A DNA stretch of 64,000 nucleotides from Clostridia bacterium (GTDB taxonomy: Bacteria > Bacillota > Clostridia > Lachnospirales > CAG-274). Location: NCBI GenBank assembly GCA_030524425.1, contig JAUNGN010000007.1:1-64000 (forward strand). The letters are read 5' to 3'. Every line of letters starts with the position of its first letter. Positions within the stretch are counted from its first letter, which is position 1. Of this stretch, positions 12,527-31,944 are shown one piece after another. The notes under the pieces were generated by a model. That model searched no databases, was not told where the DNA came from, and saw only the letters and a program-made list of their open reading frames with translations. The position numbers and the translations under genes were made by a program.

Positions 12527-13006
12527 ATGCTTAATATAAATAAAATGTCACCTGCCCCGCAGTCTGTTGCCTTTGCAAGAATGAGAGGAAGTTATAAATA
12601 CCCGGATATAACAGGAATAGTACAATTCAATCAGACAGAAAAGGGTGTTATTGTTACTGCACGTATATTTAATCTCCCCTATAATAATGACAAATGCAGC
12701 TATGGTATATATGGATTTCATATCCACGAGGGTAACAGCTGCACAGGAAATGAGGAGGATCCCTTTGCAAATTCAAAAGCTCATTATAACCCTAATAACT
12801 GTCCTCATCCTTACCATGCAGGAGATTTACCCCCTCTCTTTGGCAATAAAGGATATGCTTATATGTCAGTACTGACAGACAGGTTTACATTAAATGAAAT
12901 AATAGGCAAAACTGTCATTATACATGATCATCCTGATGATTTTAAAACTCAGCCCAGCGGTAACAGCGGTGAAAAAATTGCTTGCGGAGTAATAAGAATG
13001 TTATAA
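12527..13006 (+). CDS. sodC: Cu/Zn superoxide dismutase family protein, no signal peptide
   Basis: 159 residues, start at ATG after AAAGGAG. All metal ligands of Cu/Zn superoxide dismutase can be aligned: copper His65 and His67 (GFHIHEG), bridging His86 (AHYNP), zinc His94, His97 and Asp100 (HPYHAGDLP), and copper His133 (VIIHDHPDD); Cys72 and Cys153 match the intrasubunit disulfide pair. The C-terminal QPSGNSGEKIACGVI matches the family. Unlike most bacterial SodC, which are exported, it has no signal peptide and so should be cytoplasmic. The expected role is superoxide removal; activity is inferred, not shown. Single gene, divergent from the purine permease. Confidence 0.88.
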   Translation: MLNINKMSPAPQSVAFARMRGSYKYPDITGIVQFNQTEKGVIVTARIFNLPYNNDKCSYGIYGFHIHEGNSCTGNEEDPFANSKAHYNPNNCPHPYHAGDLPPLFGNKGYAYMSVLTDRFTLNEIIGKTVIIHDHPDDFKTQPSGNSGEKIACGVIRML

Positions 13007-13096: not shown

Positions 13097-13103
13097 AAAA
13101 AAG

Positions 13104-13177
13104 TCGGGGCGACAAGATTTGAACTTGCGACCTCTTGAACCCCATTCAAGCGCGCTACCAAGCTACGCCACGCCCCG
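13104..13177 (-). tRNA. tRNA-Pro(GGG)
   Basis: 74 nucleotides with a 7-base acceptor stem CGGGGCG/CGCCCCG, a D arm containing AGCTTGGTAGC and a T arm with GTTCAAATC. The anticodon arm CTTGA-ATGGGGT-TCAAG puts GGG at positions 34-36. The CCA end is not encoded. It lies between the sodC gene and the hairpin array, on the same strand as groESL. Confidence 0.93.
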
Positions 13178-13270
13178 ATATATATATTTACAAGAAGCTA
13201 ATGCTTCTTGTTGCTATGCTTATTTCATTTCGCATAGCTCTTTGCTGACGCAAAGAATATAACTGCCTCC

Positions 13271-13340
13271 GCTAATGCGTCGGTAACTTTTCGAGCAAAA
13301 TCGAAAGCAAGCTTTCATTTTGCTTCTCATAAGTTATATT
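13271..13340. repeat. 70-base structured repeat, copy A
   Basis: Folds as one nested hairpin: AACTT/AAGTT outer, GCAAAAT/ATTTTGC middle, GAAAGC/GCTTTC inner. Copy B (13418-13487) has the same length and fold but different paired bases. Confidence 0.75.
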
Positions 13341-13417
13341 TCAGGATTTAAAACTTCCTGTAGCTGTGTTATCTATGCTCACACAGCCCCTGTTTCACAG
13401 GGAAATATAATACTTCG

Positions 13418-13487
13418 GCTAACGCCTCAGTAACCTTTCGACCAAAATCGAAAGCGAGCTTTCATTTTGGTTCTCATAGGTTATATT
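13418..13487. repeat. 70-base structured repeat, copy B
   Basis: Same fold as copy A: AACCT/AGGTT outer, CCAAAAT/ATTTTGG middle, GAAAGC/GCTTTC inner. Relative to copy A, one T-A pair is C-G and one G-C pair is C-G, with both sides of each pair changed. Confidence 0.75.
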
Positions 13488-13493
13488 ATATAA

Positions 13494-13536
13494 GATATTC
13501 AAATCAAAAGCAAGTAATACTTTTGATTTGAATATC
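13494..13536. repeat. 17-base perfect inverted repeat
   Basis: Arms GATATTCAAATCAAAAG (13494-13510) and its exact complement (13520-13536) around a 9-base loop. No T-run follows on either strand that would make it a standard terminator. Confidence 0.8.
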
Positions 13537-13555
13537 AATTTTAACAAATTTTTCT

Positions 13556-13817
13556 GCTATTTCATATTTTTATTTCAATATGCTCCGTATATTTACTTGC
13601 TTACGCAAGTGAAAGCTTACGCTTTTAAATAAAAAGACTCGATAAATCGCTTTGTCTTTTCAGCACTTCTTAGCTTTTAGCCGCTATCTCATCTTTTTAT
13701 TTTAAATATGCTCCGTATATTTACTTGCTTACGCAAGTGAAAGCTTACGCTTTTAAATAAAAAGACTCGATAAATCCTTTGTCTTTTCAGCACTTCTTAG
13801 CTTTTAGCCGCTATCTC
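13556..13817. repeat. 127-base tandem repeat, two copies plus a diverged third
   Basis: Units begin at 13556 and 13683 and share almost the whole sequence from 13578-13690 and 13706-13817, with one single-base deletion in the second. A diverged third unit begins at 13810 and runs into the groEL 3' end. Each unit contains the hairpins ACTTGC-TTAC-GCAAGT and AAAGC-TTAC-GCTTT. Confidence 0.8.
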
Positions 13818-13895
13818 CATATTTTATTTTAAATGCTTTCAGCATTTACCTTGCTTACGCAAGGCTGATGCTTCGCATCAAATAAAATACGTCGA

Positions 13896-13950
13896 TAACA
13901 AGCCTTGCAGGGAAAAGAAAGCGAGCTTTCTTTTCTCCTGCTACGGCTTG

Positions 13951-13953
<3 letters not shown>
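13896..13953 (-). other. long hairpin that includes the groEL stop codon
   Basis: On the minus strand TAACAAGCC pairs with GGCTTGTTA at the ends of a 58-base element, with inner stems GCAGG/CCTGC and GAAAAGAAAG/CTTTCTTTTC, about 24 pairs in all. The first TAA is the groEL stop. No T-run follows, so it looks like a 3' stabilising or processing structure rather than a classic terminator. Confidence 0.7.
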
Positions 13954-15591
<1,638 letters not shown>

Positions 15592-29819: not shown

Positions 29820-30458
29820 TTATGCCAAAATACTCTTAATATAATCAGCTATTTCGTCATTTTTGCAGTTAGCAAAGAAAAATTCACTAAACTTTTCACC
29901 GCTTACAGCACCTTTTAATAAATCCTGATCAATATTCTTAAGTACATACATAATATCAGTATGTGTAACCTTCTTAACCTCATCAAGTATTTTCTTATTT
30001 CTCTGTTCAGGTATAACCCTTTCCTTTGGGTAACCCTGACCGCTTTCACCAGAGAATAACTGCTCAAAAGTATATTTTAAATTAAGTTCAGCACCCCATC
30101 CAAATCCCTTGGCAAACGGAAAGGCTGCACAGTTACCGTCATTAATCTGTGCAAACATATAACCATCAGACGGATCTACAATATGTCCGCATAATACACC
30201 CGGGAAAGCATTACAAGCAAGCATTGCACCCTCACCTGTACCACAGCCTGTAACAACAAAATCAGCTGCGCCTGAGTTAAGAAGAATGGCTGAAAGAATA
30301 CCGCACTGTACATATGTAAGCTGTGCATCATCCTCAGCAGTATACATACCATAATTAAATACCTCATGACCCTTAGGCTCAACAACACTCTTAAGTGTTG
30401 AGCAAATAAGCTCATTTTTTGCTGCCTGGCTATTTTCGTTAATTAATGCAATTTTCAT
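29820..30458 (-). CDS. RpiB/LacA/LacB family sugar-phosphate isomerase
   Basis: 212 residues from the ATG correctly spaced after AAAGGTG; an in-frame ATG 18 bases earlier precedes that site. The N-terminal part holds the RpiB/LacAB fold with the GCGTGEGAMLACN loop, the Cys of which is the catalytic base region in RpiB. The protein is about 60 residues longer than typical RpiB (about 145-150); the C-terminal extension (PKERVIPEQRNKKILDEVKK) marks a clostridial subfamily. It should interconvert aldose and ketose phosphates; the true sugar is unknown. Single gene with its own terminator. Confidence 0.85.
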   Translation of the reverse strand: MKIALINENSQAAKNELICSTLKSVVEPKGHEVFNYGMYTAEDDAQLTYVQCGILSAILLNSGAADFVVTGCGTGEGAMLACNAFPGVLCGHIVDPSDGYMFAQINDGNCAAFPFAKGFGWGAELNLKYTFEQLFSGESGQGYPKERVIPEQRNKKILDEVKKVTHTDIMYVLKNIDQDLLKGAVSGEKFSEFFFANCKNDEIADYIKSILA

Positions 30459-30592
30459 TTTATTTTCACCTTTCATAAAAAATATTTTATATCTTAACTA
30501 TAAAATAAATACTCTGATTTGTCAATAGCAAAAGAACCTGCCCTGAAAATCAATCAATGACATTCAGGGCAGGAACTCTCAGTGTATCCACA

Positions 30593-30922
30593 TTAACAAG
30601 CTTCCTTGAATAAATCAAGCTTAGATACATGGTTTAAGTAAATAATTTTATTTCTGTTTCTATATGCTTTTTTAAGAACAAAATTTCGTTTTCTCTTCCT
30701 CATTTCTCTTTGCCTTTTTTCTTCAATACTGTCTGCTGCAATACCAAAAGCAAATAAACAGCAAATACTCAATCCTATAAAAGGAAGTGTTACAGCCAGC
30801 ATATTACCATAGCTTAAATTATTAAGCCAGCTTATACCGAAATTAACACAATATAGAGCCGTAAATATAACAACAGCTGCTAATAAATTTATACAAAGTT
30901 TAGCTAAATTATTAATCTTCAT
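30593..30922 (-). CDS. small membrane protein, unknown
   Basis: 109 residues with two membrane helices (about 8-32 and 37-60) followed by a very basic cytoplasmic tail (EEKRQREMRKRKRNF). AGGAGGT precedes the ATG and a consensus promoter lies 46 bases upstream, so expression should be strong. No family recognised. Confidence 0.65.
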   Translation of the reverse strand: MKINNLAKLCINLLAAVVIFTALYCVNFGISWLNNLSYGNMLAVTLPFIGLSICCLFAFGIAADSIEEKRQREMRKRKRNFVLKKAYRNRNKIIYLNHVSKLDLFKEAC

Positions 30923-30967
30923 AATTCAAAACCTCCTGTCATTCGTTCATTTGTTTGTTACAGCAAC

Positions 30968-30996
30968 ATTATACAACATATTTTCTATTTTGTCAA
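30968..30996 (-). promoter_or_regulatory. promoter of the 109-residue membrane protein gene
   Basis: TTGACA (30991-30996) and TATAAT (30968-30973) on the minus strand, 17-base spacer, perfect consensus. Confidence 0.85.
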
Positions 30997-31098
30997 ATAT
31001 TTGTTCTAATTTTTTTGTATTTTTTTACTTTAATTTATAACAGCTCTGTGATATACTTTAATTATAAATTATAGGATTTAATAAGGAGGTATTGGTTT

Positions 31099-31944
31099 AT
31101 GAAACTGGTAACTTTTACACATCTTAAAAAAACTTTAGTTGGTGCATTAACTGATAAATATATGTATCCCCTTCCCTTTAAAACCATGAATGAATTAATA
31201 GATTCCGGTAACTCCATAGAGGCACTTTGTGCCATGGCAGGCAATCCAATAGCCTTGCAGGAAACTAAAATACTTTCCCCTATTCCCGTACCAAAACAGG
31301 ATATTATTTGCCTTGGTATTAATTATATGGCACATGCCGTTGAATCAGCACGCTATAAAAAGGAAGCCTTTGGCGGAGAAAGACCATATGCCGTATATTT
31401 TTCAAAAAGAGTAAATGAATGCTCTCCCCATAACGGTACTATTTCAAGCTATGGAAAGATTGTAGACAGCCTTGACTATGAGTGTGAGCTTGCTGTAATT
31501 ATCGGCAGGGATTGTAAAAACGTAAAAAGAGAAAATGCCTTTGATTATGTATTTGGTTATACTATATTAAATGATATTAGTGCAAGAAATCTTCAAACAA
31601 GACATAAGCAATGGTATTTTGGCAAAAGTCTTGATGGATTTACCCCTATGGGGCCCTGTATTGTAACGGAAGATGAGTTTGAAAGACCTCCCGTACTTGA
31701 AATTAAATCCTATGTAAACAGTGAGCTTCGTCAAAACAGCACAACTGACCTGCTTATATTTGACATCCCTCACGTTATTGAAGAATTAAGCCAGGGAATG
31801 ACATTAAAGGCAGGTACAATTATTTCAATGGGAACTCCTGCGGGAGTAGGTATGGGCTTTAAACCTCCTAAATTCTTAAAGCACGGTGATGTTGTAGAAT
31901 GCTATATTGAAAACATAGGTACTTTGAGAACATATATTGAATAA
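31099..31944 (+). CDS. fumarylacetoacetate hydrolase (FAH) family protein
   Basis: 281 residues, ribosome site AAGGAGGT. The FAH fold is clear: CLGINYMAHAVES at about 71, then the metal-binding acidic residues in LDYECELAVIIGRD and YTILNDISARNLQ, and the closing STGTPAG-type loop ISMGTPAGVGMGF. Members hydrolyse or decarboxylate C-C bonds of diketo acids, or act on oxaloacetate; the substrate is not evident. No catabolic neighbours: it is flanked by a small membrane protein and a GLUG surface protein, so it looks like a stand-alone housekeeping member (oxaloacetate decarboxylase/tautomerase or acylpyruvase type). Confidence 0.88.
   Translation: MKLVTFTHLKKTLVGALTDKYMYPLPFKTMNELIDSGNSIEALCAMAGNPIALQETKILSPIPVPKQDIICLGINYMAHAVESARYKKEAFGGERPYAVYFSKRVNECSPHNGTISSYGKIVDSLDYECELAVIIGRDCKNVKRENAFDYVFGYTILNDISARNLQTRHKQWYFGKSLDGFTPMGPCIVTEDEFERPPVLEIKSYVNSELRQNSTTDLLIFDIPHVIEELSQGMTLKAGTIISMGTPAGVGMGFKPPKFLKHGDVVECYIENIGTLRTYIE

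Follow-up and report, generated by a model that had tools for sequence, protein, structure and literature searches.

The two repeats that lie between groEL and a tRNA-Pro gene in the analysed window (64,000 nt, positions 1 to 64,000 of contig JAUNGN010000007.1 of a Clostridia bacterium), referred to as copies A and B, are probably two head-to-tail copies of a dispersed, non-coding and modular repeat of ~150 nt, which behaves as a non-autonomous mobile element of the BOX/RUP/ERIC-like kind and is handled by way of its fold. The family is interspersed in several genomes, has inserted as a unit into a gene and forms head-to-tail arrays whose units meet at one shared TAATAT-like junction, and its members retain a fixed architecture while the sequences of their stems turn over by compensatory change. 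The family belongs to the broad class of small, structured, dispersed repeats and appears to be undescribed.

The 70-base repeats on which the initial annotation had focused form the core of the larger ~150-nt element, for which the minus strand is the better reading direction and which is present twice, head-to-tail, in that orientation (copy A, ~13190-13341; copy B, ~13342-13489). A repeat search returns the similar segments at 13268-13340 and 13415-13487, with 88% identity, in agreement with the coordinates given initially. The array, groEL (13951-15576) and tRNA-Pro (13103-13177) share the minus strand; the array lies between the two genes, upstream of the tRNA gene, and stops ~12 nt before the tRNA 5' end. 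Along the minus strand the element consists of TAATATAAC, a nested hairpin (hp1), a small hairpin (P3), the segment GTTATATTA, three further hairpins and a terminal TAATAT, and GTTATATTA is able to pair with the element start, TAATATAAC. The hairpin hp1 comprises a foot of 5 pairs, a middle stem of 8 and a tip of 5 capped by a CTTG loop, and P3 (ACC-GA-CGC-GTCA-GCG-GA-GGT) combines a G.A/A.G internal loop with a GNNA loop. Model searches used R1, a covariance model of the X module with 87 positions and 31 pairs, whose matches in the window are given in Table 1.

Table 1. Modules of the array and of the adjoining second repeat class in the window, with the basis for each assignment.
Feature	Position	Strand	Basis
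Copy B, X module: TAATATAAC, hp1 (13418-13487), P3 with G.A/A.G internal loop and GTTA loop, TTATATT	13403..13489	-	R1 match 13403-13488, 100.8 bits; fold
Copy B, Y module: hairpins at 13388-13402, 13363-13387 and 13342-13360	13342..13402	-	Fold of 13340-13418; layout as in other copies
Copy A, X module: hp1 (13271-13340), P3 with closing stem AATATAAC/GTTATATT	13255..13341	-	R1 match 13255-13341, 104.7 bits; fold
Copy A, Y module: CTTTGC-GTCA-GCAAAG; GCTATGC..GCATAGC; ACAAGAAGC-ATTA-GCTTCTTGT	13190..13255	-	Fold
Related second repeat class: approximately three ~127-nt units, stem around three short hairpins	13540..13950	-	Repeat search; relatives beside hp1 copies at C60 and C45; weak R1 match 13874-13955

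The last unit of the second repeat class is preceded by an hp1-like hairpin and ATCGA, and a unit of this class directly follows hp1 at C60:22247 and C45:140437, which indicates that hp1 occurs with two alternative 3' modules. The three hairpins inside each of the second-class stems are of the GNRA type. Just upstream of copy B, a perfect 17-bp inverted repeat with a 9-nt loop and no T-run (13494-13536) falls outside the family, and downstream of tRNA-Pro an open reading frame (12527-13006) resembles a Cu/Zn superoxide dismutase gene.

A DNA search of the bacterium's own genome with the 70-base query yielded 13 matches, and a longer query gave matches of up to 312 nt, which represent other dimers. 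Copy numbers per genome were taken from the model searches: R1 returns 28 matches at E<=1 in the 2.6-Mb genome itself, ~20 of which are clear and a few others antisense echoes, ~26 copies in the congener G005, and 8-9 in each of four genomes from another genus (G011, G019, G026 and G032). Overall, the family was found in 14 of the 61 genomes searched and, at E<=1e-6, is confined to two of the 11 genera of the taxonomic family. Plasmid and phage collections gave no match, nor did two scans of IMG/VR, and a scan against Rfam produced no family match above the gathering score, the neighbouring tRNA being the sole match. Screening of 84,980 species genomes, a set from which close relatives may be missing, for the P3-core pattern returned a single match (in Yoonia), which we judged to be due to chance. 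Nearly all copies are intergenic, with two genic cases among ~58 contexts examined (one in frame and one disrupting a mobile gene), and the number of tandem copies varies among loci.

The two genic copies are evidence of insertion as a unit. One of them (L015/L055, G000:C46:50240-50400) interrupts a serine recombinase gene, whose reading frame is restored (..GADDRDIITDKASGK..) when the flanks are joined at TAATAT and 155 nt are removed. The other (L117 59-1627, minus strand; G005:C91) lies in frame within a cobA/hemD fusion gene, to which it adds ~47 residues, and cobA-type orthologues in four congeners lack the insert; since that frame is free of stops in five of the 15 copies from G005, the in-frame insertion is unremarkable by itself. 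Left junctions read (T)A-TANNAT and right ends TAATAT(A), and tandem copies are joined at one common junction. The ends are direct rather than inverted (TAATATRAC on the left, ..GA/TG-TAATAT on the right); classical terminal inverted repeats are absent, and the sole partner of the left end is the internal GTTATATTA. A target-site duplication could measure up to 6 nt (TAATAT) at the serine recombinase and, if the ends are unmutated, at most 2 nt (AT) at the cobA locus (left end TAGCAT, right end TAATAT). As for candidate mobilizing enzymes, the presence of a Y1 transposase, an IS110-type transposase or a reverse transcriptase (RVT) does not track that of the element, and G005, with its ~26 copies, has no match to the Y1 transposase family (PF01797).

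Copies A and B share the nested hairpin described in the initial annotation, with folding energies of -19.5 and -20.2 kcal/mol, respectively, and z ~ -4 relative to shuffles, and comparison of the two bears out both of the compensatory changes named there, T-A to C-G in the outer stem and G-C to C-G in the middle stem. We found two further compensatory pairs in P3 (C-G to G-C and C-G to T-A, minus strand), positioned at or just past the 5' edge of the 70-base span considered initially. The copies differ by 13 substitutions across 87 alignment columns. Nine affect paired columns: eight make up the four compensated pairs, and the ninth replaces an A.C mismatch with A-U. All Watson-Crick pairs of A remain unbroken in B. 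When an equal number of substitutions is placed at random in 200,000 trials, at least two compensated pairs arise in 1.3% of cases, at least three in 0.04% and at least four in 0.0005%, that is, once in 200,000 placements. In its outer and middle stems, copy L048 on another contig has the same C-G/C-G states as copy B, with which it groups, and the occurrence of these states at a different locus indicates that the compensations predate insertion here and arose in the element's lineage. The A/B differences are inherited subfamily divergence and no demonstration of selection at this locus. Of the original proposition that pairing, not sequence, has been kept, the conservation of pairing thus stands on strong support, whereas the compensations are inherited rather than locus-specific.

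That support comes from the family as a whole. Among 71 aligned copies, standard pairs occupy 90.6% of pair cells versus 77.8% in shuffles, double changes occur at 25 of the 31 pairs versus 16.0 in shuffles, and the covariation score reaches 0.339, compared with 0.141 for shuffled data and 0.035-0.074 with the partners slid. This alignment was fitted to the structure, which biases these measures in favour of the fold, and we therefore also traced the changes along a tree built from 51 full copies, using a null model in which each branch's substitutions are re-dealt among the paired columns with the tree preserved. Single-branch double changes from one Watson-Crick pair to another number 31 there versus 2.7 ± 1.6 expected, a count seen in none of 1000 nulls. 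An R-scape-like all-against-all test recovers two pairs at E<0.05, both within the structure, and so small a number indicates that the test's power per pair is low. The three Y hairpins are likewise present in every complete copy, with stem sequences that differ between the bacterium's own genome, G005 and the other genus. Finally, at an orthologous locus in three species (L134, L135 and L138; flanks ~88-90% identical), changes on one stem arm are matched by changes on the other at the same site (GAAG/CTTC versus GGAG/CTCC; GATG/CATC versus GCCG/CGGC), either by compensation or possibly by replacement with another copy. Gathering further copies and testing their covariation, the check suggested initially, hence argues strongly for conserved pairing in both the 71-copy alignment and the 51-copy tree, and stems were not broken as often as preserved among the copies collected.

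An accidental match of two paired differences in an AT-rich hairpin region could be entertained as long as the two copies alone were in view, but four compensated pairs with none broken, together with the strong covariation over 71 copies, refute it, and we give it virtually no weight. It is unlikely, in our view, that template switching between hairpin arms (quasi-palindrome repair) produced most of the compensations without selection on an RNA or ssDNA fold, although covariation alone cannot separate folded-strand selection from such homogenization of the arms (PMC8794818), and this qualifies the initial interpretation. Template switching is documented as a mechanism for RNA hairpins (PMC8794818), and it or a hairpin flip is expected to generate inversions such as that of hp1 in L053/L014 (G000:C59:22985-23071), where the loop CAAG is the reverse complement of CTTG and the bulge sits on the opposite arm; in addition, ~18 of 41 changes between Watson-Crick pairs are of the transversion type, without a G.U intermediate. 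Nevertheless, most of the 41 compensations are not tracts, as only ~7 affect adjacent pairs within a single branch, and neither the bulge nor the imperfect G.A/A.G internal loop has been homogenized. Template switching is also blind to strand, yet on the 51-copy tree changes from Watson-Crick pairs to A.C are depleted (19 versus a null mean of 30, at or below the lowest of 1000 nulls) while those to G.U are not (36 versus 36.6), the raw event asymmetry being moderate (37 versus 20, p=0.03). The same depletion disfavours a symmetric cruciform relative to a single folded strand. Since the element occurs in either orientation with respect to genes, any mutational strand bias would be expected to cancel, and one folded strand is indicated; furthermore, it is on the minus strand that the GNNA loops and the G.A/A.G internal loop are conserved. 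These patterns point, with moderate strength, to a fold that would be under constraint on one strand, as RNA or ssDNA of the window's minus strand.

About as unlikely as template switching, in our judgement, is the reading of the elements as genes for functional small RNAs or as cis-acting RNAs (leader, terminator or attenuator) kept for regulation. At the L134/L135/L138 locus, ~70 nt upstream of the element are nearly invariant in the three species and carry TATAAT where the element begins, and the element's hairpin displays compensatory changes in situ; left flanks across the family often read TATANT and are thus -10-like, and TTGACA-like hexamers are weakly enriched 15-19 nt upstream (3.33 versus 3.00 matches, 5 of 1000 shuffles). 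The -35 signal is nonetheless weak (18 of 49 copies versus 8-16 of 49 at other spacings), a promoter scan of the window does not rise above chance, Rfam offers no match, tandem number is variable and insertions occur inside genes. Nor is there an orientation bias (neighbour pairs: +/- 14, +/+ 13, -/- 10, -/+ 7), and the presence of copies in either orientation to genes makes a dedicated cis-regulatory role per site unlikely and led us to reject a terminator or leader role as a general explanation. It is possible that copies have an incidental effect on local transcripts.

Among characterized repeats, the Streptococcus pneumoniae BOX elements (boxA, boxB and boxC), which are regarded as non-autonomous mobile elements, are similarly small, intergenic, modular, multi-copy and strongly folded, with a variable number of modules (PMC3049150). 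This is a likeness of description; the Rfam scan gave no family match. BOX elements are reported with terminal inverted repeats and target-site duplications (PMC3049150), whereas the ends here are direct TAATAT motifs and no duplication is demonstrable. With the wider BOX/RUP/ERIC-like class the family shares a multi-copy, mostly intergenic occurrence, a length below 200 nt and a common fold, as well as insertion as a unit, which is evident from the restored serine recombinase frame and the cobA orthologues without insert. Rickettsia palindromic elements (RPE), which are palindromic and ~150 nt long, can occur in frame within protein-coding genes (PMC10969869), as does the copy in cobA of G005; RPE membership, however, entails frequent in-frame insertion, and in-frame genic copies account for one of ~58 contexts here. 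REP/BIME repeats associated with RAYT (Y1) are also hairpin repeats, whose single-strand fold is perhaps recognized by the mobilizing enzyme, but the Y1 transposase that defines the REP/RAYT pairing is absent from copy-rich G005, and our element is larger, comprises several hairpins and has no identified GTAG-like foot. MITEs resemble the family in being short, AT-rich, non-coding, dispersed and inserted as a unit, and differ from it in that it has no terminal inverted repeat pair and no demonstrable target duplication; no parent transposon was found among the three enzyme families tested. By these comparisons the family does not qualify as a MITE sensu stricto, as REP/RAYT, as RPE or as any Rfam family. 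Its folded palindrome, AAC/GTT ends and head-to-tail arrays led us to consider integron attC sites, whose core is GTTRRRY; GTTATAT misfits this core and there are no cassette genes between copies, and this assignment was rejected.

Under the favoured interpretation of a non-autonomous mobile element, the repeat would move or be recognized in the form of a folded single strand, either RNA or ssDNA of the window's minus strand, the requirement to fold would preserve pairing, and an activity supplied in trans would insert the element at AT-rich sites near TANNAT. A more specific scenario, which we regard as a long shot, is mobilization by an undescribed folded-single-strand system that chooses its site by base pairing, in which the internal GTTATATTA would pair in a guide-like manner with the left junction TAATATAAC and the TAATAT at the end of a copy would itself serve as a target, with arrays growing head-to-tail. 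If the mobilizer is found, such pairing between end and interior becomes testable. Independently of the mechanism, dozens of copies with heavy stem turnover provide a natural data set for weighing folded-strand selection against template-switch mutation in mobile repeats. They also carry a caution: covariation between two paralogous repeats may be inherited subfamily divergence, in which case it is no proof of a functional RNA at the locus.

Several observations concern the surroundings of individual copies. The ~70-nt segment upstream of L134, L135 and L138 resembles a promoter or another conserved signal. Two copies in G019 (L130 in C45 and L141 in C30) directly adjoin CRISPR-like arrays with the repeat GTTTCAATCCCCTTACGGGGCGCGGGTTGCGAC, within a larger duplicated context. 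Lastly, at L018/L060 (G000:C15, ~30000-31600), a distinct intergenic repeat unit, CCCTCAGTCAGCCTGTGGCTGACAGCTCCCTTAAAAAGGGAGCC.., is present in several tandem copies and adjoins a degenerate member of the family.
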